Position numbers and translations under genes: made by a program. 60,952 bases of DNA, from the NCBI GenBank assembly GCA_937982115.1, contig CALJNE010000081.1:1-60952 (forward strand). The letters are read 5' to 3'. Positions 36,047 through 52,848 of the stretch are shown here, piece by piece. The DNA is from an uncultured Bacteroidales bacterium. Its GTDB lineage: Bacteria; Bacteroidota; Bacteroidia; Bacteroidales; ML635J-15. The notes below the pieces were generated by a model. It saw only the letters and a program-made list of their open reading frames with translations, was not told the DNA's origin and made no database searches. Within the stretch, counting starts at the first letter, position 1; the number at the start of each line of letters is the position of its first letter.

Positions 36047-38263
36047 TTAAAAAAATCCAAAGATTTTTTCTGCAATATTCCTTGCCATAAGTTCATAGCC
36101 TTTATTGTTGCAATGCTCCGAACCGGTTTTGTGAGGTTCGAAATATTCACTTTGCTTTTCGCCTAAACTCTTAAAAATACTATCATTATCAACAAAAACA
36201 AGATTTTTCTCCTTTGCTATGCTTTTCCATATCTTACCTACACTATCTGCCCAATAATGAATTTCTTCAGAGTTCGGAGGAGGAATTAATGGATAATTCA
36301 TACAAATAATTTCTAATCCGTTTTTACGACATAAATCTATACTGCTTCTAATATCACTCTCTATCCACGAAAAAATCTCAGCATCGCGATAATTTGCACT
36401 GCGTTTTAAAACATGCGGCAAAAAGTAATGATAATCTCTATAAAAGGTTTGCAATTCATTTTCATAAATCTTATTCAATAGCTCTATATCCAAATTTTCA
36501 GAATTAATTTCAGGCAAACCATTTATTCCGTAATTTTTAAGCTCTTCTTTTATTGCATTTGACTTGTTTTGCAATATAATATCATTTATCAGGCAGGCTG
36601 CTCTAAAAAGATTATTTGTGTCAGATATTTGTTTTGACGATTCTCTTAAAGCATTCAAGTCCTCGAATTTTTTATTTTTCAGCATCAACCAAATTCGGGC
36701 AATGCTAATGTCTGAGTTTTGGTCATTATAATTTTTTAAAAGAAAATTATTAACTTCGGTAAAATCATTGTTGAAATATTCTTCGAGGGCAATTTGATAA
36801 AGAGGAGAGTAGTCGTATAGAAGAATTAAATATGCTGACTGTGCTCTTAGTTTGCGGTATTGTACATCATTTGTTTTCAACAGTAAATAATCATATTTTA
36901 AATAAGAGAAAACAGGATTATTGAATTGTTTTTCAAGTTTTTCAAGCAAATCAAGGGTTTGGTAAACAATAGTATTTTCATAAATCTGATTGTATTCTTT
37001 AAAAAATATTTCCATATCAAGTTCTGTTACAGCAGTTTTGAGTGCATAAAAAACTCTGCCGTCGTAAGGATTTTTGTTAAGTGCAAAACTTAAATAGTTA
37101 ATACTTTTATGCCAATTTCTTAAACTTAAAAAATACCTGCCGATGTAGTAGTAACGCATATAGGAATTTTTACCTAAAAACGGGTAATTACTTGCTTTTT
37201 CGATAAATGAGTTTGCATATTTCAATACATTTTCGTCGGTGTCGGAACTTAGGTTTTTGTATTTTATGTTTTGAACAATTCTCCGGTAGAGTTTTACAAG
37301 TTTAATTTTTTCGATGTGGTCTTGTTGCGGATTGAAACCAAGATAATTCCACGAATTTGCCATTCCAAACAACATTATCATAATATCCGGATTAGTTTGG
37401 TCAATATCTTTTTGTAAATTGCTAAGCACTTGAAACGAGTTTTGAGCACATCTTCCCCGATTATAAACAATAACATTGCTGTTGGTTTGGGTTTGCAGAA
37501 TTCTTTGCAGTTGCGAAGGATAATCATTTCCTTTAGTTGCTCCGATTCCATATGTGAATGAGTCGCCAATACATAAAATTACAATATCATCTCCGGATTT
37601 TTGTCTGCTCTTTGCCTGTGTGTCGCTTGAATAAATTGCCCCGAAAATTCTTAAAATTATCTCTGCTAAAACAAGAATTACTAAAGTCCAGAATAATAAT
37701 CCGACAACAAACACCAATATTTTGTCACGCCATAAATTTTTTCCGCTTATGGAATTTCGTTTTTTAGTCTTTTTAATTATTAAGAATAAAATGAAAATTA
37801 CGGTTAATACAGTAAATGAAAGAAGTACCTCAAAAACAAAATCTTTTTTTAATTCATATTTTATGATGTAAACGGAGTTTTTTAAGAAATTTTTGCTGAG
37901 TTTTGATTTTGAGTTGATAATTATTTTTTCGTTTGGGGATGGTTTAAATACAGTAATTTTATGATTTTCAAAATTTTCAAGATTGAAGTACGTTAAATCT
38001 TTAGAGTAATTTTTTGTTGGGATAATCTCTAAATTTTTGTAATAACCTTCGATGAAAAGTTGTCCTTTATCGCTGCGGAGGATTATTTGTTTTCCAAAAA
38101 CACCTTGAGCTGTAATTTTAAATTCGCACTCAGGATTAGAGGCAGAAATTTGATACAGTCCGGCTACCGAAACCTGCGAGACATAAATCACAAATGCAGT
38201 TAATAGCATAACTGCAAGAGAACTAAAAAAGTAGAGTAATATTTTTTTTGTCTTAATATTCAT
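36047..38263 (-). CDS. SGNH/GDSL hydrolase-type membrane protein with extracytoplasmic N-terminal module
   Basis: 738 residues from the ATG at 38263, which overlaps the upstream gene by 11 bases; the longer frame to 38329 is within the upstream gene. Layout: transmembrane segment 1 (about 8-28), beta-type extracytoplasmic module (about 45-140), segments 2 (143-163) and 3 (183-208), then an SGNH hydrolase domain (CIGDSFTYG, candidate Ser235). A TPR-like helical insertion follows (INYLSFALNKNPYDGRVFYAL), and the C terminus has EPHKTGSEHCNNKGYEL with the catalytic histidine. The usual GxND block III reads FGMANSW. Such proteins often acylate or deacylate cell-surface glycans. It is the last gene of the four-gene overlapping cassette. 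Confidence 0.8.
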   Translation of the reverse strand: MNIKTKKILLYFFSSLAVMLLTAFVIYVSQVSVAGLYQISASNPECEFKITAQGVFGKQIILRSDKGQLFIEGYYKNLEIIPTKNYSKDLTYFNLENFENHKITVFKPSPNEKIIINSKSKLSKNFLKNSVYIIKYELKKDFVFEVLLSFTVLTVIFILFLIIKKTKKRNSISGKNLWRDKILVFVVGLLFWTLVILVLAEIILRIFGAIYSSDTQAKSRQKSGDDIVILCIGDSFTYGIGATKGNDYPSQLQRILQTQTNSNVIVYNRGRCAQNSFQVLSNLQKDIDQTNPDIMIMLFGMANSWNYLGFNPQQDHIEKIKLVKLYRRIVQNIKYKNLSSDTDENVLKYANSFIEKASNYPFLGKNSYMRYYYIGRYFLSLRNWHKSINYLSFALNKNPYDGRVFYALKTAVTELDMEIFFKEYNQIYENTIVYQTLDLLEKLEKQFNNPVFSYLKYDYLLLKTNDVQYRKLRAQSAYLILLYDYSPLYQIALEEYFNNDFTEVNNFLLKNYNDQNSDISIARIWLMLKNKKFEDLNALRESSKQISDTNNLFRAACLINDIILQNKSNAIKEELKNYGINGLPEINSENLDIELLNKIYENELQTFYRDYHYFLPHVLKRSANYRDAEIFSWIESDIRSSIDLCRKNGLEIICMNYPLIPPPNSEEIHYWADSVGKIWKSIAKEKNLVFVDNDSIFKSLGEKQSEYFEPHKTGSEHCNNKGYELMARNIAEKIFGFF

Positions 38264-40661
38264 AAGTTCCAACAAGTCTGATTGTGAAAATTTCGTTTGT
38301 GCTTTGTGATGAAAGCACAAGTTTATCAATTTTTAAAGAAATGGGGAAGTAGAATATTTCAGCCTTAATATTTTGCGTAGCATAATTGTATCTTATTGCT
38401 TTGATTTTTTTATTATTTGTTGAAGTAAGAGCATAAATTGAAATTTTCTGTGGAGCATCGTTAAAAATTAAATACTTGATTTTATAATCGGAAAGTTTTT
38501 GCAGTATATTATTAATTTCGATTGTAGAATTAGCAGCAGTTTTAATATCGGTGATTCTGTCGAGATTGTTTTTTATACATTCGGTTTCTTTTGGGAAGTT
38601 GATGTAAGGAATATAAAAACTTTGAGGATTTTTTTGTATTAAAGGATAAAATTCTCTCCAGTAACTTTTACTGTATCGAGGAGTGTTTAAGATACTGTTG
38701 CTGAAAGCTGCAAAAGAACCAAAAATCAGGCAGAAAAATGAAATTAGAATGTAGTTTATTTGATTTTGTTTTGATTTTAAGGTGTTTTTCTTTCGGAAAT
38801 ATAATTGTAAAAGCATTAATAAAACAAAGAATACTGAAACTTTTGCAGGAACAAGATATCTGTGATTTTCGACGACAATTTTGATAAAAACTGAGGATTG
38901 CGGAAATATTTGTGAGCTTTCTGTGTTGTTGCAATAAATAAAACTTGTGGCGAATATCGTTAATAAAGCTCCCAGAAAAAATATGCCGTAAGAAGCGGTA
39001 ATTGATTTTTTTAAGAGTTTAAAGATGAATTTCATTAAAAAAAATAAAAACACTCCCGACAAAAGATATATAACCGTTGCAGGTAATAATTTTACTATTA
39101 ACGGACTGCCAAAAAAATAGAACACTTCGTAAAAGAAAACAAATAAAGACTCAAACAAACTTATGAAAATATTTTTTTCGTTTGATAAAAAAGCAGAATT
39201 ATATCGCGTCCCGTATTCAAGACTTGTTAAGTTAATTAAATCTTGGTAATTTAGTTTTGTTACCACAAACTGTATTAGAATTGCCGTACTAAGACCTAAA
39301 AAAATGTAAAACAATTTAATATCTTTATTGCGATATTTGAAAATTCCATATAGTGTGAAAGGTAAAAGTATTACGAAAATAGGTTTCGATAATACGGCCG
39401 GCATAAACAGCAATATCGGTAAAAGAATTTTGTATTTATAATTTTCTTTGTCCGTATTAGGAATAAAAATCCAGAGAAACATCAGTGCAAAAACTACAAA
39501 ACTGAGATTGTAAAGCACAAAATCAAAACTGAAAATTGCAGGAAAAAAACTTAAAACAACAGCAAAAAACAGTCTGGTTTTGTCATCTTTAACATAAAAT
39601 CTAAATATTGGCAGACTTAAATTTGCAAAACTCAAAGCATAAAGTATGAGCGTAAATATTTGGAATGCTTCGGGGACATAAAACTCAAATCCTAAAATCT
39701 TTGAAATAATAAAACCGATGTTAGTAGGAATAAAATTCAAATATCCAGAGTCTGTGGTTGTGATTGCTTCTAAATAGTTATAGTTCAAAGTTTTGACATA
39801 AAATTTGGAAATATCGTCTCTAAAAAGTTCACCGAACTGAAAAACACCTGGCTTAAAGATAAAAAGCAATCCCGAGAATATTATTCCGGCTGCCAGAAAA
39901 AATCGGAATGTGTTTGGATTACCGATGTATTTATTGAAATATGCCGCAAATAAAAACACTAAAACCAAACTGCCGTAAACTAATACATATTCAATACGGT
40001 TAAGTGATTGATAAAGAAGTACTTCTGGAAAAATTATGCTAAAAATAAAAGGGATAAGGCAACTTATAAATGAAATCACAAGAAAATTCTTCCATTTGGT
40101 TTTAAAATAAAATTTTAGATGTTTCAGCTTGCGGATTATTAGATGATAAATTTGTTTTCTTCTGAGATAAATTGTGTAGGTTAAAAAAAACATCAATATA
40201 GCAAAAAGCGTAAGAATAATAATTGATGAATACTTGCCGAAAAAAACTTTCAGGTTGTGAAAAAGAAGATTGAAAGTTTGATTTGTTATGAGTTTTGTGA
40301 GTTTGTAAAAAAATCCTGGAGGAGTATAGTTGTTAAGAATTATTTTTTGATTTTCGATGTTGTTACTGTTAACAATGAAAGTTTTTCCGTTTATTTCTGC
40401 TTTAAAATGAAGTATATCATTGCGTTGGTCTTCGAGGAATAAATTTCTGACAAATCTTTTTTGCAGAATAAGTTTGTCGTCGGTTTCAATAAATTCTATG
40501 CGTTTTCCGAGTGGGCTTTCTGCATAGATTTTAAGTCTGGAGTCATGGATAATAATTTCATCGGCAAAGTTTGAGTTTGACAGGTAAAAAATCGTAAAAA
40601 CACAGACTCCGCAAAAGACTGTAATTAAAAAGGTGAGAAATATTTTTGTTTTCTTTTTCAT
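38253..40661 (-). CDS. Polytopic membrane protein, GT-C-like, paralogue of the 41409 gene
   Basis: 802 residues. An N-terminal transmembrane segment (8-28) is followed by an extracytoplasmic module with YAESPLGKRI (46-55), a second segment (144-166), a basic cytoplasmic linker, and then about ten more hydrophobic segments. A loop near 295-315 carries TTTDSGYLNFIP, matching TTPDTGYLAIIPR in the paralogue; D-x-GYL-x(3)-P is the most conserved point. The topology and an aspartate in an outer loop resemble GT-C glycosyltransferases that use polyprenyl-phosphate sugars, but I recognise no named family. The start shares four bases (ATGA) with the stop of the methyltransferase gene. Confidence 0.75.
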   Translation of the reverse strand: MKKKTKIFLTFLITVFCGVCVFTIFYLSNSNFADEIIIHDSRLKIYAESPLGKRIEFIETDDKLILQKRFVRNLFLEDQRNDILHFKAEINGKTFIVNSNNIENQKIILNNYTPPGFFYKLTKLITNQTFNLLFHNLKVFFGKYSSIIILTLFAILMFFLTYTIYLRRKQIYHLIIRKLKHLKFYFKTKWKNFLVISFISCLIPFIFSIIFPEVLLYQSLNRIEYVLVYGSLVLVFLFAAYFNKYIGNPNTFRFFLAAGIIFSGLLFIFKPGVFQFGELFRDDISKFYVKTLNYNYLEAITTTDSGYLNFIPTNIGFIISKILGFEFYVPEAFQIFTLILYALSFANLSLPIFRFYVKDDKTRLFFAVVLSFFPAIFSFDFVLYNLSFVVFALMFLWIFIPNTDKENYKYKILLPILLFMPAVLSKPIFVILLPFTLYGIFKYRNKDIKLFYIFLGLSTAILIQFVVTKLNYQDLINLTSLEYGTRYNSAFLSNEKNIFISLFESLFVFFYEVFYFFGSPLIVKLLPATVIYLLSGVFLFFLMKFIFKLLKKSITASYGIFFLGALLTIFATSFIYCNNTESSQIFPQSSVFIKIVVENHRYLVPAKVSVFFVLLMLLQLYFRKKNTLKSKQNQINYILISFFCLIFGSFAAFSNSILNTPRYSKSYWREFYPLIQKNPQSFYIPYINFPKETECIKNNLDRITDIKTAANSTIEINNILQKLSDYKIKYLIFNDAPQKISIYALTSTNNKKIKAIRYNYATQNIKAEIFYFPISLKIDKLVLSSQSTNEIFTIRLVGTYEY

Positions 40662-41419
40662 TTTTTTCTAACCGTAAAATAAACTCCGAGTGCAAAAATA
40701 TATGGAAAAATTTCGGTAAGGATTCTGTCTTTCAGGTAAACGGACTTAAGCATAAATTTTGGGAGTGGTAAATATGGCGATTTGTGATATTGTCCCCCGG
40801 AATTCATAAAAATAAAAGCTTCGCGATAGTGAATGTTTTCTATGCTTAAATCCGGAAAAATTTGTTCGAAAATATTTTTGTCTTTAATAATAAGTTTAGC
40901 AACCGAATTATTTCCGTCAATGTTGCTTTTCGAAAGTTTAGCAAAAGAATATTCTTGAATTAGAGGAGAGATTTTTTCGTAAAAGCTTTCGTGTTTGCTC
41001 AATTTCAGAAGCAATTTCATCAGCAAAGATGTAAATGGTTCAATAAAAACAATTTTTCCTGCAGGTTTTAAAATTCTTTCTGCTTCGCGAAAAAACTCCA
41101 AAGGTTTATCGAGGTGATGAAGAACATTTATCATCAAAATATAATCGAAAGTTTCGTTCGGAAATTCTGTTTTTTGAGCATCAATATTTTTTAGATCCAG
41201 CCAATAGCTTGTGCATAAATCAGTTATTGTTAAATTGTAATCTTTTAGGAAAATACTGCTTAATCCTGCTCCTGCTCCGAACTCTATTCCTTTTTGTTCT
41301 TTGTTGATATGCTGTTTTATAAACTCATATCTTTTTTCGACCAAAAAGTAAATGTTGGAGTAAGCTCCTTTTAAAAACAAGTTCCTGCAATGTTCAAAAT
41401 TTATTCCGTCAGTTTTCAT
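40658..41419 (-). CDS. Class I SAM-dependent methyltransferase
   Basis: About 253 residues from the ATG at 41419; the frame runs to an in-frame TTG at 41431. Motif I is IEFGAGAGLSSIFL, and motif post-I to IV includes FDYILMINVLHHLDKPLEFF and ERILKPAGKIVFIEPF, as in Methyltransf_11 enzymes. It is sandwiched between two paralogous membrane proteins with overlaps of 11 and 4 bases, so coordinated expression is certain by layout. A glycan or lipid-carrier substrate is inferred from the neighbours. The C-terminal 60 residues (YHKSPYLPLPKFML) resemble lipid or glycan methyltransferases of surface-polysaccharide loci. Confidence 0.88.
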   Translation of the reverse strand: MKTDGINFEHCRNLFLKGAYSNIYFLVEKRYEFIKQHINKEQKGIEFGAGAGLSSIFLKDYNLTITDLCTSYWLDLKNIDAQKTEFPNETFDYILMINVLHHLDKPLEFFREAERILKPAGKIVFIEPFTSLLMKLLLKLSKHESFYEKISPLIQEYSFAKLSKSNIDGNNSVAKLIIKDKNIFEQIFPDLSIENIHYREAFIFMNSGGQYHKSPYLPLPKFMLKSVYLKDRILTEIFPYIFALGVYFTVRKK

Positions 41420-43760
41420 CTCCTCCAACAATTCTTAATGATTTAATATTATTCAAATCTGATTCTCCGTTAACAAAAATAAAACTATTTAGATATGGAT
41501 AATCTCTGAGTGAGAAAAAAATAAATTTATATTTTGGGCTCACAGGATAAAGCGGACTAATAAATACACTGTCGTTGTTATAATATGCCTTTAATTTAAG
41601 CTTGTTGTTTTTATTGGCAAAATCCTTATCGTTTAGCAGGATAACTGCAAGTAATTTTTTGTTTTGGATTAAATTAAAATCAATGTTCTTGTAAGTGCCA
41701 TCATAAATTGTGTAAATATTTGGGCTGCAAATTTCTTGTTTCAATGCCGGATAAAAAATTATTGGAACATAATACGGTTTATGTTTAAGTTCTCTCGAAA
41801 GGTAATACCATTCTTCGCTCCAGTTTTCGTTTCTTATTTTTTTATAAAACTCTATACTGCGAAAATCAGGTTGAATAATTATAAAATTCAGCAAAATATA
41901 AGCACCGGTCAGAGTATTTACTGCAACTTGTTTGTTAAGTATGATTTTTTTGTTTTTGATAAAATAAAAAATTGACGGAATAAGCGTAAGAGCCAAAATG
42001 TTGTGTATGCCTATTGTATAACGCGAGAAAAACGGATTCCCGTAAGCCGCATATTTTAAAAATCCGGAGAAGGAAAAATCAATATCGGCATCGCTCGGAA
42101 AAGTCCTAAACATAAAAGCTATGCAACTCAGTACAAGAACGTTAGCAAGAATAAAAACTCTGCTCAATTCCGAATTTCTGATATTTTTAAGATTACGATA
42201 AAGAATAAGAATTGTAATTGCTGTTCCGATTAAGAAAAATAAATATCCTAAAAATCCGGAACTTATACTGAATAAAGGAAAACTCAATAGCATATATGAT
42301 TTTACAAAATAGATAAAACTTCCTGCAATTATCAGCCAGATAGGTTTTTGTTCTACAGTAAATGACTGTAAATCAGATTGTTGAATGTTTTGCATTTGAA
42401 TTAAAGAATTGCTGATAAAAACAGCCTGAATAATACACGCCAAAAGAAAAACAGAGGCAAGGATTAAAGTTTTACTGCGAAATTGTTTTTTGTAGAATTT
42501 GTAAAAAACAATTATAGTAACTACCGGAGCAAATGCAATTAGATGGGCTTTTGACAGAATAAACAAGGAACCTGTTATTGCATAGAAAATTAGTTTTGTG
42601 CTTGAAATATTTTCCTTTGATTTAATCAAAAAAATACAGATTAAGATAAAACCAAAATAAGCCACATCGGTAATAGAAATTGCATAATTTAAAGGCGATA
42701 AACTAAAAAAACCGAATACCGCCATTATAATTACAAAAGCACATCTTAATTTATCGTTCTGAAACATAAATCTAAAACGTGTTCCGCATAAATACGAAAA
42801 TATTGATGCATAAATTATCAAGGTCGCAAACGAAGTAAAGGCAATTGAGTAAGCTCCGTAATTATCGAAAAAGTAGGCAATTCCGTAAAATATTCGCGGA
42901 ATTATTGCAAGATATCCTGTGTCCGGAGTTGTCAGGCTCGCTAAAAATCCCGATTCTGCAGGTCTAATTAAAAATTCGTGAAAAAAACCATGAAATCCGT
43001 AATTTCCCATATAATCAGCAGGACAAACAACAAAATACATTAGCAAAAAAATTGTCCAGAAACCAAAATTTACTAGCATAAAGTTTTTGCTGAAATTTTT
43101 TCTTAGCATAAAAATCCCTGCCGGAATACTGAAGAAAATTATCCATGCAATATTTATCCACAATCCCGTGAAATAAAGTTTTTCAAATTTAACTCCTACA
43201 AGTCTGAGTGCTGCAACAAATGCGATACTAATGCAAAGAGCTACTATTATCGAAATAATGTTTTTAGGATTAAAAAGTAATTTTTTTATTTTATGGAAAT
43301 ATAATCTCAACAAAATTAACAGTTCTTGCAAAGCCGAACGATAAAATTTCGGAAATAAAAAAACACTTGTAATAAAAGCCAGAAATAAAAGATTAATTAA
43401 AATCAGGGATTGCGAATACTTCGTGAAATTAGAAAGTTTTTGTTTAAAAGACAAATTCTCTTTAATGATGATTAAATGTTCTTGTTTTTTTATGATAAAT
43501 TTTTCCTGGTTTGCGAAATTTTCGGATCGTGTTTTAATAATTATTTTTGACAAATATTCGTTGAAATAAAATTCATCTTGTGTTTGCAAGGGATAAATTT
43601 TTCGTCCAATTGGACTTTCTCCGTAAATTTGTTCAATATTTTGTGAATCAAGCTTAAACCCGGAATTTACGTTAATGCGAAAAATGTAAAGAATATTTAA
43701 AATCAATACAATAAAAATAATTCCGAAGCATATTAAAGAATATTTAGGTTTGTAATACAT
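41409..43760 (-). CDS. Polytopic membrane protein, GT-C-like, first gene of the cassette
   Basis: 783 residues. The N-terminal segment (8-28) is followed by a module with YGESPIGRKI (46-55, the same residue positions as in the 802-residue paralogue), a second segment (117-137), a basic linker and about ten further hydrophobic stretches. The outer loop at 270-290 reads GFLASLTTPDTGYLAIIPRI. The paralogue differs mainly in the periplasmic tail. A glycosyltransferase C-type role or a polymer/lipid-linked sugar function is inferred. A TATATTTG -7 element lies 41-48 bases upstream of the start. Confidence 0.75.
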   Translation of the reverse strand: MYYKPKYSLICFGIIFIVLILNILYIFRINVNSGFKLDSQNIEQIYGESPIGRKIYPLQTQDEFYFNEYLSKIIIKTRSENFANQEKFIIKKQEHLIIIKENLSFKQKLSNFTKYSQSLILINLLFLAFITSVFLFPKFYRSALQELLILLRLYFHKIKKLLFNPKNIISIIVALCISIAFVAALRLVGVKFEKLYFTGLWINIAWIIFFSIPAGIFMLRKNFSKNFMLVNFGFWTIFLLMYFVVCPADYMGNYGFHGFFHEFLIRPAESGFLASLTTPDTGYLAIIPRIFYGIAYFFDNYGAYSIAFTSFATLIIYASIFSYLCGTRFRFMFQNDKLRCAFVIIMAVFGFFSLSPLNYAISITDVAYFGFILICIFLIKSKENISSTKLIFYAITGSLFILSKAHLIAFAPVVTIIVFYKFYKKQFRSKTLILASVFLLACIIQAVFISNSLIQMQNIQQSDLQSFTVEQKPIWLIIAGSFIYFVKSYMLLSFPLFSISSGFLGYLFFLIGTAITILILYRNLKNIRNSELSRVFILANVLVLSCIAFMFRTFPSDADIDFSFSGFLKYAAYGNPFFSRYTIGIHNILALTLIPSIFYFIKNKKIILNKQVAVNTLTGAYILLNFIIIQPDFRSIEFYKKIRNENWSEEWYYLSRELKHKPYYVPIIFYPALKQEICSPNIYTIYDGTYKNIDFNLIQNKKLLAVILLNDKDFANKNNKLKLKAYYNNDSVFISPLYPVSPKYKFIFFSLRDYPYLNSFIFVNGESDLNNIKSLRIVGGDEN

Positions 43761-44111: not shown

Positions 44112-44342
44112 ATGAAAGGAGCTTTGAAACGTATAACATGGATTTATATCAGATTTGTGCAGAAAATTCTGATAAATATATTTTTGACTTTAACATATTT
44201 CCTGGTTATTCCTTTCAATTGGCTGTATTTGATGATTTTTAGAAGAAAACAGATTTTCAGGAAGTTTTCCAATAATCAAACTTATTGGCAAAAGGTTCCT
44301 GAACACAAAAACGAAATAGAAGAGTACTTAACACAATCATAA
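44112..44342 (+). CDS. Small membrane protein resembling the C-terminal half of SxtJ-like proteins
   Basis: 76 residues. There is one hydrophobic stretch (about 18-40) followed by a basic and aromatic tail with RRKQIFRKF and TYWQKV. This order (helical segment, basic loop, YW-K) matches the second half of the SxtJ-like protein encoded at 48086, whose end reads SSYWITK. I infer a short or halved relative. It opens the operon and lies 3 bases before the DUF5989-like gene. The same pair (DUF5989, SxtJ) recurs at the far end of the cassette in reverse order. Function unknown; it may be a subunit of a membrane complex. Confidence 0.5.
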   Translation: MKGALKRITWIYIRFVQKILINIFLTLTYFLVIPFNWLYLMIFRRKQIFRKFSNNQTYWQKVPEHKNEIEEYLTQS

Positions 44343-44345
44343 AAA

Positions 44346-44507
44346 ATGAGAAAAGTAGTATACATACTTAAAGAAATGTTCAGAATGATAAGAAAACACA
44401 AGATGAGTTTTCTTGCACCATTGTTTATAATTTTGGCATTGCTTGCGTTTTTGGTTTATTATATTGGTCCGGCAGTTATTGTTTCATTTATTTATGCAGG
44501 AGTGTAA
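44346..44507 (+). CDS. DUF5989-like small membrane protein (copy 1)
   Basis: 53 residues: MRKVVYILKEMFRMIRKHKM, then one long hydrophobic segment (about 21-50) ending GPAVIVSFIYAGV. It aligns with the 49-residue protein encoded at 47930 (L-[KR]-x(2)-[FW]-x(4)-[KR]-K, a single helix, then G-x-AV-x-[PS]F-[IV]Y). This is the known layout of DUF5989 proteins, which accompany carbamoyltransferase and SxtJ genes. It is tightly packed (3 bases after the preceding gene, 3 before the next). The gene is short and easily missed in automated calls. Confidence 0.65.
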   Translation: MRKVVYILKEMFRMIRKHKMSFLAPLFIILALLAFLVYYIGPAVIVSFIYAGV

Positions 44508-44510
44508 GTT

Positions 44511-44744
44511 ATGAATGTTGTTACTGAGATTCTTGATTTAAGAGGAAGTCCCTGTCCTGGTAACTGGCCAAAAATTTTAATAAGTCTTGAAGCTCTCGAC
44601 CGTGGCGATGTGCTGGAAGTAATTCTGGATGATATTGTTGCTCTGGACAGAATTCCGGAGATGCTAAAGGAAGAAACTGATTATAAGTTAATAGAAACAC
44701 AGGTTGTTAATACTAATATTCATTTATTCATAAAAGTATTTTAG
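44511..44744 (+). CDS. TusA-family sulfur carrier protein
   Basis: 77 residues. The N terminus reads ILDLRGSPCPGNWPKILISL, in which the CP motif carries the active cysteine (Cys15). The GDVLEVILDD strand and the C-terminal beta segment are standard TusA features. TusA proteins carry a persulfide and hand sulfur on to PP-loop or other sulfur-insertion enzymes. The usual CPxP reads CPGN here. Its direct neighbour (the next ATG follows the stop with no gap) is a PP-loop enzyme, so it may be that enzyme's sulfur donor rather than a tRNA-thiolation component. Confidence 0.85.
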   Translation: MNVVTEILDLRGSPCPGNWPKILISLEALDRGDVLEVILDDIVALDRIPEMLKEETDYKLIETQVVNTNIHLFIKVF

Positions 44745-45776
44745 ATGCAGGAGAAACGAATTTGCTCGAGATGTATAATGCCGGAGAGTTTACCTGAGAT
44801 TTTTCTGGACGAAAACGGGGTATGTAATTTATGCCACGCTTATGATGCCATGAAAAAATTTGAAGATACTCGCAAACCTCTCGAAACAGACCTTTTGAAA
44901 ATTCTTGACAAATATCGTGGAAAGAACAAATACGATTGTATGGTGATGTGTTCGGGGGGAAAGGATAGCACTTCTGCATTGTATTTTATGAAAAAAAGAT
45001 ATAAACTCAATGTTTTTGCTTTTATGTTCGACCATGGTTTTGAAACCGAAGAGGCCGTTGAGAACGTAAAAAAAGCAACAGATAAACTTGGCGTAGATTT
45101 ACTTTTTTTCAAGTCAGCATATATGAAGGAGATGTTTCGCAAGCTTGTCGAAACAGATTCCCGTGCTGTAATTTGCCATCCATGTTCGATATGGTATATG
45201 GATTTAGCTTTTGATGTTGCTGCCCGTTACGAAATTCCCATAATAGTTGCAGGTTGGACAAAAGGGCAATCGCAAAAGCAGGAAGTAATGTCAAAGTGTG
45301 GGTGTAATGTGCATGCGGCAGAGTTTAAAAAAATGGCCGACAACACAGTTGAATTTTTAAATAATTCGCTTCAGGATATGCCTCAATATAAAAACTTTCC
45401 GAAAAGTATGGAAGAGGTACTTAAACGAGCGAAGAAAAAACATAAGGCTCTTGTTATTTCTCCACATTGGTTTTTACCTTATGGTCCTGAAGAATACATA
45501 AAAATCATTAAAGATGAACTCGACTGGAAAGCTCCAAAACTAAGTTATCCTCAAGGAAGCACTAATTGCAGAATGAATTTTATGTCGGTGTATTATTCAT
45601 TGAAACATTATGGATATACTCATTATCATGTTGAGGCATCGAAGCTTATCAGAGAAAATGTAATTACAAGAGATGAGGCTCTGGAGCAATTGAAACTGAA
45701 TTTTAACAGCGAAGAGCTAATTAAAATAGCCCGGGAATTAGGGTTGAATGATAAAAATTTTGAAGATTTTAACTAA
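44745..45776 (+). CDS. PP-loop N-acetyl sugar amidotransferase-like enzyme
   Basis: 343 residues. N-terminal zinc-type cysteines (C7, C10, C27, C30: ICSRC and VCNLC) precede a PP-loop ATP-pyrophosphatase motif SGGKDS (70-75). Later come CHPC (144-147), KCGC (185-187) and a C-terminal GSTNC (C275). The family is TIGR03573-like (WbpG/PseB-type N-acetyl sugar amidotransferase), which adenylates a sugar substrate and installs an amidine nitrogen using ammonia from HisH/HisF-type partners. No HisH/HisF-like gene is in the window, while a TusA carrier is immediately upstream. A sulfur-transfer use is therefore possible. Located between TusA and a DciA-like gene. Confidence 0.85.
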   Translation: MQEKRICSRCIMPESLPEIFLDENGVCNLCHAYDAMKKFEDTRKPLETDLLKILDKYRGKNKYDCMVMCSGGKDSTSALYFMKKRYKLNVFAFMFDHGFETEEAVENVKKATDKLGVDLLFFKSAYMKEMFRKLVETDSRAVICHPCSIWYMDLAFDVAARYEIPIIVAGWTKGQSQKQEVMSKCGCNVHAAEFKKMADNTVEFLNNSLQDMPQYKNFPKSMEEVLKRAKKKHKALVISPHWFLPYGPEEYIKIIKDELDWKAPKLSYPQGSTNCRMNFMSVYYSLKHYGYTHYHVEASKLIRENVITRDEALEQLKLNFNSEELIKIARELGLNDKNFEDFN

Positions 45777-45783
45777 ATAAAAT

Positions 45784-46074
45784 ATGAGACGCTCGCAAAC
45801 ATTAAAATTGAGAGAGATTTTAAAAATGACTTTCGCCTCGCCAAAACTTGCCGATGGACTTGATGCTATACGTGCAAAAAATCTTTGGCCAGAAATCTGT
45901 GGACAACATGTGGCTTGTGTTACCGAGGATATTTTAGTTAAAAACAATATCATTTACGTTAAAATAAATTCTTCGATTATTAAAACCGAAATTTTAATGA
46001 TAAAAGCAGAAATTATCAAACGAATAAATCAGGAGTTGGGCAGAGATTTTATTAAAGATATAGTTTTGAGATAA
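45784..46074 (+). CDS. DUF721 (DciA-like) protein
   Basis: 96 residues with the KH-like DUF721 pattern: LREILKMTFASPKLADGLDA, NLWPEICGQHVACVTED and VYVKINSS-like strand IYVKINSSIIKTEILM, followed by INQELGRDFIKDIVLR. DciA/DUF721 proteins interact with the replicative helicase in many bacteria. Its stop shares one base with the carbamoyltransferase ATG (TAATG), so translation is probably coupled. Its presence inside a modification cassette is odd and may be just local gene packing. Confidence 0.75.
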   Translation: MRRSQTLKLREILKMTFASPKLADGLDAIRAKNLWPEICGQHVACVTEDILVKNNIIYVKINSSIIKTEILMIKAEIIKRINQELGRDFIKDIVLR

Positions 46075-47927
46075 TGTTTACAATCGGGATTTCAGCATAT
46101 TATCACGATTCGGCTGCATGTATTCTCTACAACGATGAGATTATTGCGGCTGCACATGAAGAGCGTTTCACACGCAAAAAACATGATTCTTCTTTCCCTA
46201 TTAATGCACTTAAATATTGTCTCGACGAGGCAGGAATTGATATTTCGAATGTTGACAATATAGTATATTATGAAAAACCTTTCCTGAAATTTGAAAGATT
46301 ACTGGAAACATATTATCATTTTGCTCCAGCCGGAATTAAATCTTTTGTTACTGCAATTCCTGTTTGGCTGAGGGAAAAACTTTTTATTAAAGATGAAATT
46401 TACAGTCAATTAAAAAAACTTGGAAAATTCGATAAATCCAAACTAAAAATTTATTTCAGCGAACATCATCTTTCGCATGCTGCTTCTGCATATTATCCCT
46501 CAGGATATGATGAAGCTGCAATACTCACAATTGACGGAATGGGAGAGTGGGCTTCGGCTTCAATTGCTTATGGAAAAGACAATAAAATTCAAATTCTGAA
46601 AGAGCTGCATTTTCCAAATTCTGTGGGTTTATTGTATTCAGCATTTACTTATTTTACCGGCTTTGTGGTAAATAGCGGCGAATATAAACTTATGGGATTA
46701 GCTCCCTATGGTAATCCTTTAGATGAACAGGTAGAGATTTTTAAAAATCATATTAAAACCGAAATTGTTGAGATAAAAGATGATGGTAGCATAAAACTTA
46801 ATATGAAATACTTTGATTTTGCTACCGGTCTAAAAATGATAAAAACAAAAAAATGGGAGCAATTATTTGGGATAAAAATTCGTAAACCTGACGAAAAACT
46901 CACGCAGGAATATTGCAATCTAGCACTCGCCATTCAGGAGGTTACCGAGGAAATTATTTTAAAAATGGCGGCAGAAGCAAAATCTCTGACAGGAAGTGAA
47001 AATCTTTGTATTGCCGGTGGTGTAGCACTGAATTGTGTTGCAAATTCAAAAATTTTAAATGCTGGAATTTTTAAAAACATATTTGTTCAGCCTGCCGCAG
47101 GAGATGCCGGTGGAGCTCTGGGAGCTGCTTTTGCCTTTTTGCATATCCATAAAAATTTTCCGCATAAAGCAGATTATTTTGACAAAATGAAAGGGGCATT
47201 TTTAGGACCTAAATTCAGTGATAATGATGTTTTAAAAGTGGCTCGAAAATATAATGCAACGTTTAGATACTTTTCCGACAAAGAAAAGCTAAATGAATTT
47301 ATTGCAGGATGTATTGCAGACGGTAAAGTTACCGGATGGTTTAGGGGAAGAATGGAGTATGGACCGCGAGCTCTTGGAGCACGTAGCATTTTAGCTGATG
47401 CCCGTAATCCCGAAATGCAAAAAAAACTTAACCTCAAAATAAAATTCCGCGAAGGATTCAGACCTTTTGCTCCTTCGGTTTTAATCGAAGATTGTAAAAC
47501 ATATTTTGATATAGATATTCCTTCTCCTTATATGCTTTTTACTGCTCCGGTTACTCAGAATCGCAGGAAAGAATTACCGGAAAACTACCATAACTTCGAC
47601 TTAACTACAAAACTATATACGCTAAGGTCTGATATTCCGGCAGTTACACATTGTGACTTCTCCGCTCGGCTTCAGACTGTGCATAAAGAAACAAATCCGG
47701 ATTATCATGCTCTTATCAGCGAGTTTAAGCGTCAAACAGGTTATGGAGTGATTGTAAATACCAGCTTTAATGTCAGAGGCGAACCAATAGTATGCACTCC
47801 CGACGATGCTTTCAGATGCTTTATGCGAACAGAAATGGATGTGCTCGCTATGGAAAACTTTGTGTTTTTAAAAGAAGAACAAAATATTGATAAAAAAATA
47901 TTCGACGAAAATTTTAAACCTGATTAA
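46074..47927 (+). CDS. Carbamoyltransferase (NodU/TobZ/CmcH type)
   Basis: 617 residues. The N-terminal Kae1-like domain begins GISAYYHDSAACILYNDEII with EERFTRKKHDSSFP. Metal and substrate residues sit in SEHHLSHAASAYY (HHxxH at 131-135) and LTIDGMGEW. The C-terminal part has GRMEYGPRALGARSILADAR, FRPFAPSVL and VNTSFNVRGEPIVC. The family transfers a carbamoyl group from carbamoyl phosphate to a sugar or natural-product hydroxyl through carbamoyl-AMP. It is followed 2 bases later by a DUF5989 gene, its usual companion. The substrate is likely the glycan or small molecule built by this cassette. Confidence 0.95.
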   Translation: MFTIGISAYYHDSAACILYNDEIIAAAHEERFTRKKHDSSFPINALKYCLDEAGIDISNVDNIVYYEKPFLKFERLLETYYHFAPAGIKSFVTAIPVWLREKLFIKDEIYSQLKKLGKFDKSKLKIYFSEHHLSHAASAYYPSGYDEAAILTIDGMGEWASASIAYGKDNKIQILKELHFPNSVGLLYSAFTYFTGFVVNSGEYKLMGLAPYGNPLDEQVEIFKNHIKTEIVEIKDDGSIKLNMKYFDFATGLKMIKTKKWEQLFGIKIRKPDEKLTQEYCNLALAIQEVTEEIILKMAAEAKSLTGSENLCIAGGVALNCVANSKILNAGIFKNIFVQPAAGDAGGALGAAFAFLHIHKNFPHKADYFDKMKGAFLGPKFSDNDVLKVARKYNATFRYFSDKEKLNEFIAGCIADGKVTGWFRGRMEYGPRALGARSILADARNPEMQKKLNLKIKFREGFRPFAPSVLIEDCKTYFDIDIPSPYMLFTAPVTQNRRKELPENYHNFDLTTKLYTLRSDIPAVTHCDFSARLQTVHKETNPDYHALISEFKRQTGYGVIVNTSFNVRGEPIVCTPDDAFRCFMRTEMDVLAMENFVFLKEEQNIDKKIFDENFKPD

Positions 47928-47929
47928 TT

Positions 47930-48079
47930 ATGGAATTTTTACGCGATTTGTGGTTGTTTCTTAAAGAAAGAAAAAAATACTGGCTCATACCGATAATTAT
48001 AGTTTTGTTCTTGCTCGGATTATTGATAGTTTTTGGAGGCTCTTCTGCAGTTGCTCCTTTTGTTTATACACTTTTCTGA
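47930..48079 (+). CDS. DUF5989 small membrane protein (copy 2)
   Basis: 49 residues. MEFLRDLWLFLKERKKYW is followed by a single hydrophobic helix (about 19-36) and GSSAVAPFVYTLF, which is the DUF5989 signature. It begins 2 bases after the carbamoyltransferase stop and ends 6 bases before the SxtJ-like gene. DUF5989, SxtJ and carbamoyltransferase genes are a recurrent neighbourhood, but the molecular role of the small proteins is unknown. It is below the usual ORF-calling length. Confidence 0.8.
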   Translation: MEFLRDLWLFLKERKKYWLIPIIIVLFLLGLLIVFGGSSAVAPFVYTLF

Positions 48080-48085
48080 AAAGTT

Positions 48086-48442
48086 ATGGAAAAAATTAAG
48101 AGACAGTTTACAGATGTACTTGTTATTGTGGCTGCAATTCTACTTGCCGGAATTATTACCGGTATCGAAACATTTTTTTACATCGCTCTGGGTCTATTGG
48201 TTTTAGTTGCTTTAGTAAATAAAATTGCTGAATATATTTCTTTCTTATGGCAGAGCCTGGCAAAAATTCTGGGCTTTTTTGTTTCAAAAATAATTCTTGG
48301 ACTTGTATTCATAGCTTTTTTAATTCCTGTATCAATTTTTTATAAATTATTTTCGAAAAATCGTCCCATTTCAAATCAACAAAAAAGCAGCTATTGGATT
48401 ACTAAAGGAGACGGAAAAATTGATTTTAACAAAGCCTGGTAA
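48086..48442 (+). CDS. SxtJ-like membrane protein
   Basis: 118 residues with three hydrophobic segments: VLVIVAAILLAGIITGIETF, FFYIALGLLVLVALVN and ILGLVFIAFLIPVSIFYKLF. A C-terminal tail follows with SSYWITKGDGK. This is the topology and terminal motif of SxtJ-like proteins that sit beside carbamoyltransferases in secondary-metabolite and surface-glycan clusters. It follows DUF5989 and precedes an SGNH hydrolase by 2 bases. Confidence 0.7.
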   Translation: MEKIKRQFTDVLVIVAAILLAGIITGIETFFYIALGLLVLVALVNKIAEYISFLWQSLAKILGFFVSKIILGLVFIAFLIPVSIFYKLFSKNRPISNQQKSSYWITKGDGKIDFNKAW

Positions 48443-48444
48443 AA

Positions 48445-49686
48445 TTGACAAAAAATAAAGTTTTAAATATTACTTTTATAATACTTTTTTCTGGCTTATT
48501 TTTATTTCACATTATGTTATTGATACTCGGACGAGCCTGGATTTTTACCACCATTAGTTTTTATGCGGGACTGTTATTATTTTTGTTTTTATTCTATAAA
48601 AAATTCAAAAGAAAAAATCCTCAAAGCAAAGCTCTGAAAATAATTTATGTTTTAACGGTTACAGTTTTTGTTTTTTTTATAGCTGATTTAATTCTACGGT
48701 TTACTGGGAAGTTTTCTTCTTACAGTGAGAGAAATTATTCGTTGTTTTATGTGTCACCGTACAATGATAATTTTAGTTTGCTGCGACGAAAGATATTTTA
48801 TAACGAAAAAAATCCGGTACCTTATACAGCAAGTCCGGAACAAAAAAATAAATACAAAACCACCGATTTTGAATTTATCCACAATTACAATTCATTGGGA
48901 CTAAGAGAAAGAGAAATTACTGACGAACTCTTAGCCGGACGAGAGATAATTGTGTGTATTGGAGATTCATTTACCGAAGGAGTGGGAACAGATTACGAAA
49001 ACTCATGGCCTCAGGTTCTGGAAAGAAAATTATCAAATAGAGGAGATAATGATTTTGTAGTTATAAATGCAGGGATTTCCGGTTCCGACCCTGTTAAATA
49101 TATTTATGTATTTAATTATCTTAACAACTACATTAATTCAGATTACTTAATTATTTCTATTGGCAGTAACGATTTGCTTGATATAATTTTTAAAGGTGGA
49201 AATGAGCGATACAAGAAAGATAGTTTTTATCAATGGGATGCACCTATTTGCTATTATTTTTATTCCTGGAATTTTGTATTCAGAGCAATTTCTAACCTAA
49301 TTTACGATTATCCGGAAATTTATTGTAATGAAAAAGAGTTCCGAGAAAAATTAAGTTTTGCATGTAATGAAATCGTAAAAGCTGTACAAAAAATTTCAAC
49401 AGAATTTTCGGGAAAAAAAATAGTATTGTATTTATATCCCGACCGGCAAGAAGCAAAAACTTTAAAATATCGTTACGAAGAAATGAATTTAATTAAGCAA
49501 GAATTCTTAGATAACGAAACATTCATAGTTGTTGACCAAATAAATTTTTATAAAAAATATCCGGATAAAAAGCGGTTAATTCCAGAAATATATCATAATA
49601 TTGATGGTCATTGCAACTCAGAAGGCTATAAGTTATGGGGCGAATATTTGTTTGAGATTTTTGATGAGGAATTTGGGAAGGAATAA
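48445..49686 (+). CDS. SGNH/GDSL hydrolase with N-terminal membrane anchor
   Basis: 413 residues with three hydrophobic N-terminal segments (to about 85). The SGNH core has block I CIGDSFTEG (candidate Ser175), block III IGSNDLLD and block V NIDGHCNSEGYKLWGEYL (Asp387/His389). The predicted active site faces the periplasm or cytosol depending on topology. The start is a TTG 2 bases after the SxtJ stop; no ATG lies before residue 24, which is inside the first hydrophobic segment. SGNH proteins in such cassettes acetylate or deacylate glycans or lipid-linked products. It closes the operon, convergent with a lipoprotein gene. Confidence 0.85.
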   Translation: MTKNKVLNITFIILFSGLFLFHIMLLILGRAWIFTTISFYAGLLLFLFLFYKKFKRKNPQSKALKIIYVLTVTVFVFFIADLILRFTGKFSSYSERNYSLFYVSPYNDNFSLLRRKIFYNEKNPVPYTASPEQKNKYKTTDFEFIHNYNSLGLREREITDELLAGREIIVCIGDSFTEGVGTDYENSWPQVLERKLSNRGDNDFVVINAGISGSDPVKYIYVFNYLNNYINSDYLIISIGSNDLLDIIFKGGNERYKKDSFYQWDAPICYYFYSWNFVFRAISNLIYDYPEIYCNEKEFREKLSFACNEIVKAVQKISTEFSGKKIVLYLYPDRQEAKTLKYRYEEMNLIKQEFLDNETFIVVDQINFYKKYPDKKRLIPEIYHNIDGHCNSEGYKLWGEYLFEIFDEEFGKE

Positions 49687-50327: not shown

Positions 50328-51356
50328 ATGTTTGGTAAAAGATTTTATAATGAATTAAAAGAGTTAGAGGAAAAATTATTAACTAAAAAGAGTTTTATCA
50401 TAGTTCCTCATTATAATCCCGATGGCGATGCTATTGGTTCTGCACTTGCCTTTTATTTGATTTTAAAAAAGTTAAATAAAAAAGTTAAAGTTATCAGTCC
50501 GAGTGAGTTCCCGAATTTTTTAGACTGGCTACCTGAAGCTGATAAAATTAAGGTGATATGGAATAAATCTCAAATCAGACAGGATATTTTTTCATCGTCA
50601 GAAGTTTTGATAGCAGTTGATTTTAATGAAATAAAAAGGTTAGGGGACTTAAGTTCCGAATTTGAAAAATCAGCAGCATTCAAAATTTTGATTGACCATC
50701 ATCCTAATCCTAAGCAATTTACTGATGTGATGATTTCTGCTCCGGAGTATAGTTCTACTGCGGAATTAGTTTATGATGTTTTGAAATACACCGGCTTGCA
50801 TAAATTTATTGATGTTGATATTGCAACATGTATTTATACCGGAATTATGACCGATACAGGTTCGTTTAATTATAATTCATCAACGCCGAATACTTTCAGG
50901 GTAGTTGCAGATTTGCTCGAATATGGAGTTGATAAAGATGATGCCTACGATAAAACATATAACAGCTTCTCGGTTGACAGAATGCGTTTTATGGGTCATG
51001 TAATGCTCAATCGAATGGTTGTTCTTCCGGAATATAAATCTGCGTATATTCACATTAGTGCCAAAGACAGAAAGGATTTTAAAGAAAAATTCGGCGATAC
51101 AGAAAATTTTGTAAATATTCCGCTATTTATAAAAGGAATACGATTTACGGCAATTTTTATTGAGCGAGATAATTTTATAAAAATAAGTTTTAGGTCTAAA
51201 GGTAATTTTGATGTAAATAAATTTGCTGCGAATCATTTTAACGGAGGTGGGCATAAAAATGCTGCCGGTGGAGAAAGTTTTACTTCATTACAAGAAAGCG
51301 TAGAACTTTTCGTTAAATTATTGGAACAATACAAAAACGAATTGCTTTATGATTAG
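50328..51356 (+). CDS. nrnA: DHH/DHHA1 family phosphoesterase (NrnA-like)
   Basis: 342 residues. The DHH domain has VPHYNPDGDAIGSALA, AVDFNEIKRLGDL and ILIDHHPNPK, with STAELVYDVL and TGIMTDTGSFNYN; the DHHA1 domain has FNGGGHKNAAGG. This is the NrnA arrangement: degradation of short RNAs (nanoRNA) and phosphatase activity on 3'-phosphoadenosine 5'-phosphate in the cytoplasm. In Bacteroidota a GldI-type FKBP gene often follows, as it does here, with an 8-base overlap. It opens a nine-gene run. Confidence 0.93.
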   Translation: MFGKRFYNELKELEEKLLTKKSFIIVPHYNPDGDAIGSALAFYLILKKLNKKVKVISPSEFPNFLDWLPEADKIKVIWNKSQIRQDIFSSSEVLIAVDFNEIKRLGDLSSEFEKSAAFKILIDHHPNPKQFTDVMISAPEYSSTAELVYDVLKYTGLHKFIDVDIATCIYTGIMTDTGSFNYNSSTPNTFRVVADLLEYGVDKDDAYDKTYNSFSVDRMRFMGHVMLNRMVVLPEYKSAYIHISAKDRKDFKEKFGDTENFVNIPLFIKGIRFTAIFIERDNFIKISFRSKGNFDVNKFAANHFNGGGHKNAAGGESFTSLQESVELFVKLLEQYKNELLYD

Positions 51357-51960
51357 AATTCACATCAAAAATTTCAGGGAGATTTATTTTGTGGTGATAC
51401 CCTTTGTTTTATCGGCATTACTATTTTCTTGTACTCCTAAAGAAAACAAGACAGAAGAAAAACCTTTACCTTATTCGGTTGTAAAAAAGATGCACCGAAA
51501 CGAACTTTTGGAGTGGAATAAAAATATTGTTGAATTTGATGCCGAGATGATAAGAAAGTTTATTGAACGCCGAAGATGGAATATGGAAATAACTGCTTCG
51601 GGACTGTATTATCAGATTTATCATAAAACCAATGATATTAAGGCAGAAAGCGGATTAATAGCTATTTTTAATTATAAAACATCATTACTCGACGGAACGG
51701 TTTTATACTCTTCGGATATTGATGGTCCGAGAAGTGAGACACTGGGGAAAATGGAAACAGAATTGGGATTGCACGAAGGATTGATGATGTTACGAAAAGG
51801 CGAAAAAGCAAGATTCATTTGTCCACCGCATCTCGCATTTGGTGTGCCGGGAGATGGTTACAAAGTTCCTTATAACAGCATTTTGGTTTATGAAGTTGAA
51901 CTCATTGATCTGGTAAAACCAGAAGTTAAGGAGGAAGAAAACATTCATGGTTGGATTTAA
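51349..51960 (+). CDS. GldI-like FKBP-type peptidyl-prolyl isomerase lipoprotein
   Basis: 203 residues with a lipoprotein signal (lipobox LLFSC, Cys28). A single FKBP domain begins near 90 (TASGLYYQIYHKTNDI) and runs to the end, with ELGLHEGLMMLRKGEKARFI and HLAFGVPGDGYKVPYNSILVY. GldI is an FKBP lipoprotein of the gliding/T9SS machinery in Flavobacterium. The neighbourhood (directly after nrnA) supports that link. A role in folding T9SS or envelope proteins in the periplasm is inferred. Confidence 0.85.
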   Translation: MIRIHIKNFREIYFVVIPFVLSALLFSCTPKENKTEEKPLPYSVVKKMHRNELLEWNKNIVEFDAEMIRKFIERRRWNMEITASGLYYQIYHKTNDIKAESGLIAIFNYKTSLLDGTVLYSSDIDGPRSETLGKMETELGLHEGLMMLRKGEKARFICPPHLAFGVPGDGYKVPYNSILVYEVELIDLVKPEVKEEENIHGWI

Positions 51961-51971
51961 AAATAAGAGGG

Positions 51972-52841
51972 ATGAAAGTAAAGATTGTTGTTTTATATTT
52001 TTTTACAGGATTATTTTTATTGGCATGCAATAACAATCCGGAAGAGAAATTTAAAAAATTGTCATCTGGGTTAGAGTACAGGATTGTTGAGACAAAAGGC
52101 GAAGCTGCCAGAAAAGTTAGTTTAGGCGATATTTTGCAATTGAATTGTTCTTATGAAACCGAAGATGGAAGAGTGTTGTTTGCTTCCTCAAAGTCGAGTA
52201 GAAAATATTTGCGAAAAGTTGAAAAATCAGCAAAAACTCATGGAAGTATAGAGGATGGTTTTTTGATTTTAAGAGAAGGAGATTCTGCCGTTTTTAAATT
52301 GCAGGCTGAAAAGTTTTTGCAATTTTCAGAAGGATTTGAAAAATTGCCAAAAGGAGTTCAAGCTAATGATATGATTATTGTAAAATTAAGAGTTATTGAT
52401 ATAGTTGACCGTGACGAATATGATGATATTTTGCTGGACTCTTATCATAAAGATAAAGAAACCGAAATGGAAATTTTGCAAAAGTTTCTTGTCAACTCAA
52501 ATATAAATGTAAAACCGACAGAAAGTGGATTGTATTATGTAGAGCAAATTAAGGGTAACGGACCTAAAGCAGAAAAAGGAAAGACGGTTACTGTTCATTA
52601 CACAGTAAAATACATTGACGGAGAATTGATAGAAACCTCTATTGGTGGGCAACCGATAAGTTTTGTACTCGGAAGAGGGCAGGTTATTCCGGGTTGGGAA
52701 GAAGGTATATCTTATATGAATCAAGGTGGGAAAGCGATGCTGATAGTTCCTTCGCACCTTGCTTACGGCGATAAAGGTAATGGAAAAATCAGACCTTTTG
52801 CCACTTTAGTTTTTGAAGTTGAACTTATAAATTTAAAATAA
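51972..52841 (+). CDS. Double-domain FKBP-type peptidyl-prolyl isomerase lipoprotein
   Basis: About 289 residues from the ATG at 51972; the longer frame begins at a TTG at 51951. MKVKIVVLYFFTGLFLLACN gives a lipobox at Cys19. The N-terminal half (about 25-140) has a weak FKBP fold (GDILQLNCSYETEDGRVLF, GFLILREGDSAVFKL) that lacks the usual active-site residues. The C-terminal half is a canonical FKBP (GKTVTVHYTVKYIDGELIET, FVLGRGQVIPGWEEGISYMN, HLAYGDKGNGKIRPFATLVFEVEL). Chaperone-like plus catalytic domains are inferred. Confidence 0.88.
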   Translation: MKVKIVVLYFFTGLFLLACNNNPEEKFKKLSSGLEYRIVETKGEAARKVSLGDILQLNCSYETEDGRVLFASSKSSRKYLRKVEKSAKTHGSIEDGFLILREGDSAVFKLQAEKFLQFSEGFEKLPKGVQANDMIIVKLRVIDIVDRDEYDDILLDSYHKDKETEMEILQKFLVNSNINVKPTESGLYYVEQIKGNGPKAEKGKTVTVHYTVKYIDGELIETSIGGQPISFVLGRGQVIPGWEEGISYMNQGGKAMLIVPSHLAYGDKGNGKIRPFATLVFEVELINLK

Positions 52842-52848
52842 TATTTTC

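Follow-up and report, generated by a model that had tools for sequence, protein, structure and literature searches.

In the excerpts available from its description (PMC6772006), CtaC is the iron-sulfur AANH thioamide synthetase of closthioamide; its activity is lost on substitution of the ATP-site residues D77 and S78 and reduced on substitution of C154, C157 and C284. The same excerpts report that thiotemplated enzymes lie close to some 75% of 100 CtaC homologues and that sulfur-mobilization enzymes are not encoded in the closthioamide cluster, and they leave the native sulfur donor open. According to excerpts of the respective reports, TtuA holds its cluster through three cysteines and receives sulfur from TtuB (PMC7138817), and Thermotoga LarE possesses a CXXC-C motif with a [4Fe-4S] cluster (PMC9283937). 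In the open-licence PMC literature, no paper was found that joins TusA with 'N-acetyl sugar amidotransferase', nor one that joins TusA, PP-loop and carbamoyltransferase. Judged by titles and abstracts, papers on TusA, PP-loop and 'sulfur transfer' concern tRNA, molybdenum cofactor and desulfurase topics. Excerpts of tRNA reviews mention 'thioamid' and TusA together, and the excerpt of PMC13185837 names neither TusA nor CtaC.

Here, we analyzed a stretch of 60,952 nucleotides (the window) from an uncultured Bacteroidales bacterium, whose genome assembly (2.69 Mb, 91 contigs, 90.65% complete) is referred to as G000. A tight operon on the plus strand, spanning 44112-45776, encodes a small membrane protein, a DUF5989-like protein, a TusA-family sulfur carrier and a PP-loop enzyme; successive genes are separated by 3, 3 and 0 bp (Table 1). 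As claimed in an earlier note on this DNA, the TusA frame directly abuts that of the PP-loop enzyme; its wording 'fused in position' describes the adjacency correctly but not a true fusion, as the two open reading frames, although in one frame, are divided by a single TAG. The same layout is found in L004 (LUZK01000093.1, a Bacteroidales MAG), where the PP-loop protein is 94% identical, and a comparison of the window with L004 indicates purifying selection on all four genes (dN/dS 0.04-0.10). We consider it reasonably probable, judging from sequence, that these genes constitute a sulfur-insertion module fed by a cysteine desulfurase and TusA, which, together with SxtJ/DUF5989-type membrane partners, would make a thioamide or thiocarbonyl on a probably membrane-linked substrate. 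The short gaps count in favor of such a module.

Table 1. Genes of the operon and its downstream neighbors (positions in the window).
Feature	Position	Strand	Evidence
Small membrane protein, 76 aa, first gene of the module, probably short SxtJ-like	44112..44342	+	home-made SxtJ HMM
Divergent DUF5989-like membrane protein, 53 aa	44346..44507	+	PF19451, 29.4 bits (cut-off 27)
TusA-family sulfur carrier, 77 aa, Cys15, C-P-G-N motif	44511..44744	+	PF01206, E 1.2e-12
PP-loop (AANH) enzyme, 343 aa, TIGR03573-like, under cut-off	44745..45776	+	CxxC-CxxC N-terminal part, SGGKDS, CXXC-C triad
DciA (DUF721), housekeeping neighbor outside the module	45784..46074	+	PF05258, E 1.8e-11
Carbamoyltransferase (NodU/TobZ type), separate neighboring cassette	46074..47927	+	PF02543, PF16861
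Canonical DUF5989, carbamoyltransferase cassette	47930..48079	+	PF19451, 90.2 bits
SxtJ, carbamoyltransferase cassette	48086..48442	+	PF19588, 24.7 bits (cut-off 24.4)
SGNH/GDSL hydrolase, carbamoyltransferase cassette	48445..49686	+	PF13472, E 2.4e-14

Two further regions of the window were recorded. A minus-strand cluster at 36047-43760 encodes a methyltransferase, an SGNH protein of 760 aa and two large membrane proteins of 802 and 783 aa; neither membrane protein has a Pfam match, and by eye their N-terminal parts resemble that of the SGNH protein. At 51349-53898, three FKBP-like lipoprotein or membrane ORFs, assigned by eye, lie in a row.

In comparison with CtaC, the PP-loop enzyme of the window shares the PP-loop ATP motif and a CXXC followed by a further cysteine 128 residues on (127 in CtaC). 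The spacings D74-C144-C147-C275 are 70/3/128 against 77/3/127, a comparison of residue numbers only, those of CtaC being taken from excerpts of PMC6772006. SGGxDS together with a CXXC-C triad (here C144, C147 and C275) at matching spacing is the combination of CtaC, TtuA, TtcA and Thermotoga LarE, as far as these are covered by the excerpts cited above. The locus also resembles TtuA, as excerpted, in that sulfur would come from a small carrier protein, although the carrier is of the TusA type and not TtuB. However, sequence similarity to TtuA and TtcA is only weak. A profile of the three orthologs (window, L004 and G554, a genome of another family) matched TtuA PH0300 with an E of 0.0036 over residues 34-119 only, short of the CXXC. 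C144/C147 fell on the CxxC of E. coli TtcA with a probability of 90.7% for the triad-bearing set against 23.3% for the triad-less set, the two sets being unequal in size and depth. Both matches and the CtaC-like spacing count for the sulfur-insertion module, and the short reach of the TtuA match counts against it. AlphaFold2 run on the window and L004 sequences gave a pLDDT of 40 and a pTM of 0.33. In contrast to CtaC, no carrier-protein or NRPS match was found among the scanned window neighbors, and, unlike in the closthioamide cluster as excerpted, TusA is encoded alongside the enzyme, with a desulfurase in addition in G554.

TIGR03573 covers the whole length of the PP-loop protein with 174.3 bits, below its cut-off of 203.2, and the G554 ortholog also stays below (180.1 bits). 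A second TIGR03573-type copy in G000, on contig C10, passes with 224 bits, and this contrast counts for the sulfur-insertion module. The window enzyme resembles WbpG/WbuX (TIGR03573) in its whole-length similarity, its N-terminal CxxC-CxxC and its SGGxDS PP-loop, and CXXC-C is present in some WbpG/WbuX proteins as well. It differs from them in the sub-cut-off score, the lack of HisH/HisF, the TusA partner and the C185/C187 pair. SGGKDS at 70-75 and all nine cysteines listed in the earlier note (C7, C10, C27, C30, C144, C147, C185, C187 and C275) are indeed present, but the label 'extra' does not hold for C7, C10, C27 and C30, which are family-wide (48/48 relatives). The protein also contains C65 and C69, which were not on that list; C69 was rejected as a marker of TusA-linked forms, as L060-L062 carry it too. 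C185 and C187 are both cysteine only in the three TusA-linked rows (n = 76), which counts for the module.

The gene order recurs in G554, which is an independent ortholog. Here, a 74-aa small protein, a DUF5989-like protein, a cysteine desulfurase, TusA (L058:6989-7237) and the PP-loop enzyme follow one another, with identities to the window proteins of 75% for the DUF5989-like protein, 40% for TusA and 66% for the PP-loop enzyme. Recurrence at such PP-loop and TusA identities shows that the order of the module is more than chance, and the earlier note's own counter-scenario, a TusA adjacency limited to the window's genome, is thereby excluded. The TusA/PP-loop pair is rare: it occurs in 2 of 393 genomes of the order (G000 and G554) and, among 395 genomes of the phylum, only in the window's own, and the order sample includes four genomes of the same genus in which it is missing. 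In 395 genomes of the class, no ortholog-level match besides the window was found (next match 132 bits versus 767). A scan of genome contigs with the window PP-loop protein alone as the query returned solely L004. The best PP-loop match on plasmids had 28% identity, phages gave no PP-loop match, and no viral contig matched either of two queries. Only two independent lineages were found, all in Bacteroidota, the sole group sampled in depth for orthologs, and this counts against the sulfur-insertion module.

The window TusA contains the carrier residue Cys15 and scores 47.9 bits on PF01206 (cut-off 28.6). The usual TusA motif is CPxP; the window protein has CPGN and that of G554 has CPQN, and the C-P-x-N in both copies is perhaps a partner-specific change. 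This TusA is the sole PF01206 match in G000, which counts for the module, and in the survey of the PP-loop family TusA matches were found only beside the three orthologs. The G554 desulfurase belongs to the NifS/IscS subfamily (NF002806, 327.7 bits, above the cut-off of 304; TIGR03402, 442.1 bits, below that model's cut-off), and its position in the order desulfurase-TusA-PP-loop likely reflects a sulfur relay. Against the module counts that no desulfurase lies inside the window operon. G000 has 12 PF00266 matches, none of them in the operon, and a strong one, on contig C8 (498 bits), is SufS-like by eye. It also counts against the module that TusA may serve a different enzyme.

In the proposed mechanism, a cysteine desulfurase would load persulfide on Cys15 of TusA; this would be the in-operon NifS/IscS-type enzyme in G554 and presumably a SufS-like housekeeping enzyme in G000. 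On the PP-loop enzyme, the acceptor of the sulfur from TusA could be either a [4Fe-4S] cluster bound by C144/C147/C275 or the thiols of C185/C187. Using ATP, the PP-loop enzyme would adenylate a substrate carbonyl and replace its oxygen by sulfur, leading to a thioamide or other thiocarbonyl in the manner of CtaC, TtuA and TtcA. The SxtJ-like and DUF5989-like proteins probably position the enzyme at a membrane-bound substrate, and their relatives may likewise position carbamoyltransferases. More tentatively, one may picture a desulfurase-TusA relay feeding a CXXC-C enzyme of the WbpG/CtaC group, which, with the SxtJ/DUF5989-type pair, would turn an amide (e.g. N-acetyl) into a thioamide on a glycan or lipid linked to the membrane; this specific version is possible but doubtful.

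The family survey comprised 60 stretches around all 21 places in the phylum sample outside the window's genome and the best 40 of 65 places in the order sample (own genome and G554 excluded), to which the window, L004, L005 (the second copy of G000), L058 (G554) and four stretches from plasmids were added. Of the 76 family ORFs, fragments included, 31 have cysteine in all of the C144, C147 and C275 columns. In the tree of 74 rows, with neighbors counted within 3 kb, HisH/HisF lies near 26 of the 43 rows that lack the triad and near 3 of the 31 that have it, both of which are lower bounds because contig ends cut some stretches. The tree unites 34 of the non-triad rows in a single clade (100/100); no single clade holds the triad rows. 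The three orthologs join L081, L059 and L122 on a long branch (90/79, not strong), and measured along the path, L080, which has no NRPS link, is about as close to the window protein as L081 (3.81 vs. 3.79). L081, L059 and L122 are NRPS-linked, which counts for the module, with the modest support, the long branch and the nearness of L080 counting against it, and recalls the thiotemplated enzymes near CtaC homologues in the excerpted source. In L059 and L122, the PP-loop lies inside NRPS proteins; around L081 lie NRPS genes, genes for a carrier protein and an asparagine synthase-like protein and, by eye, a PKS-like gene.

The CXXC-C PP-loop domain within the NRPS proteins at L059:5522-9541 and L122:3370-11463 is a candidate built-in thioamidation domain; in L122, it precedes an AMP-binding_C match and a carrier domain and looks as though it had been inserted into an adenylation domain. 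Sixteen standalone CXXC-C PP-loop proteins of about 360-380 aa, all from the window's order (L080, L082, L083, L085, L086, L088, L090, L092-L094, L096, L098, L099, L101, L102 and L106), form a clade, with no HisH/HisF in the surveyed stretches and no neighbor common to more than 3 of the 16. TIGR03573-type proteins without HisH/HisF also occur, in different families, at L005:6017-9707 (the above-cut-off copy of G000) and at L107 (G421). Both are flanked by a nitrilase-family amidohydrolase, assigned by eye, and a NodU-type carbamoyltransferase, and the nitrilase could be their ammonia source.

The main rival to the sulfur-insertion module is an ammonia-using WbpG-like amidotransferase, supplied by free ammonia or an unlinked glutaminase, beside which TusA would be unrelated and act, e.g., in redox sensing or in tRNA thiolation, in which TusA has a role. 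We regard this as unlikely, but as deserving serious consideration. TIGR03573 is the best family of the PP-loop enzyme, and the triad is not absent from nitrogen-transferring relatives: three of the 31 triad proteins (L064, L068 and L087) adjoin HisH/HisF, and L064, with 344.9 bits, is a bona fide amidotransferase by the TIGR03573 model. Therefore, the triad was rejected as a marker of sulfur chemistry; it is compatible with such chemistry but no proof of it, and the sulfur case depends mainly on TusA and the desulfurase. Moreover, the fetched stretch holds neither TusA nor HisH/HisF for 25 of the 31 triad relatives, and the other copy in G000 adjoins a nitrilase and a carbamoyltransferase instead of HisH/HisF. 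As for the ammonia partner itself, the window contains no HisH/HisF, in agreement with the earlier note, and neither does the surveyed DNA around the three orthologs, which counts for the module. A HisH elsewhere in the genome, which that note would have taken as contrary evidence, was not seen over the cut-off of TIGR01855 in G000 (assembly 91% complete), nor in the genome of L004; in G554, by contrast, a single HisH was found on a contig other than that of the module, and inspection by eye of the ORFs up to 1.5 kb from it showed no HisF. The route by sulfur instead of ammonia, as the earlier note had it, is thus supported indirectly by the lack of HisH in G000 and L004 and by TusA and the desulfurase in G554, while the HisH of G554 points the other way. 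It also speaks against an unrelated TusA that two families retain its adjacency and the gene order at a TusA identity of 40%, one of them with a desulfurase in addition, and that the C185/C187 pair is confined to the TusA-linked forms.

In the earlier note, the thiolated sugar or small molecule was proposed to be subsequently carbamoylated by the adjacent carbamoyltransferase, so that all these genes would form a single cassette. The carbamoyltransferase-DUF5989-SxtJ-SGNH cassette does lie on the same strand, beginning about 300 bp downstream, and both units have small membrane partners of one type, since the TusA module has its own DUF5989-like protein, which passes PF19451, and its own probably SxtJ-like one. 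The latter, the 76-aa protein, has no Pfam match, but among 333 ORFs it ranked second with the home-made SxtJ HMM (E 0.0028) and its G554 counterpart third (E 0.03), rank one being the window SxtJ, itself a training row. Nevertheless, carbamoylation within one unit appears improbable and was rejected on the congener DciA loci, the distribution of PF19451 and the G554 contigs. In the window, DciA lies between the module and the carbamoyltransferase. DciA is present in 20 of 21 genomes of the genus, and in 6 of the 10 DciA loci read the carbamoyltransferase is directly adjacent. Only two of these six (the window and L175, probably the L004 assembly) have TusA and the PP-loop enzyme too; in the other four congeners no TusA or PP-loop gene lies beside DciA. 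Of the 393 order genomes, 53 have a PF19451 match, and only G000 and G554 among these possess the PP-loop ortholog. Around the 30 canonical DUF5989 loci listed, the window's included, a carbamoyltransferase (27/30) and SxtJ (26/30) lie within about 1.5 kb, but TusA or the PP-loop enzyme in none, which is a weak test because the module of the window lies more than 2 kb from its canonical DUF5989. The module of G554 lies on an 18.4-kb contig that lacks a carbamoyltransferase; the only match to this enzyme in the genome is on contig C349, and the sole DUF5989 match is that of the module. Hence, the module and the carbamoyltransferase cassette look like separate units meeting in the window. The module resembles SxtI/SxtJ/SxtK-type cassettes, in which SxtK is linked to DUF5989, in its divergent DUF5989-like and probably SxtJ-like proteins, but a TusA-linked PP-loop enzyme stands in the carbamoyltransferase's place. 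It is more improbable still that the sulfur goes to a macromolecule (a tRNA base or a protein) instead of a glycan, lipid or peptide, with the membrane genes being incidental. The TtcA/TtuA-like CXXC, the N-terminal cysteine pairs and the role of TusA in tRNA thiolation would fit such a target, but the rare and patchy occurrence is unlike that of a housekeeping tRNA enzyme, the small membrane partners are conserved, and possible kin are found in NRPS clusters.

If the sulfur-insertion module is what these genes encode, the window enzyme would be a member of the WbpG/CtaC group with a genetically encoded sulfur source. An operon of desulfurase, TusA and PP-loop enzyme with a matching cluster motif offers a testable candidate relay for the sulfur donor that is left open for CtaC in the excerpts of PMC6772006. 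Furthermore, the survey suggests that the annotation 'N-acetyl sugar amidotransferase' is functionally mixed, given that 31 of 76 ORFs carry CXXC-C and 3 of these 31 have HisH/HisF nearby. Finally, DUF5989-like and probably SxtJ-like membrane proteins, a pair otherwise found beside carbamoyltransferases in this survey, accompany a second, chemically different enzyme at this locus.
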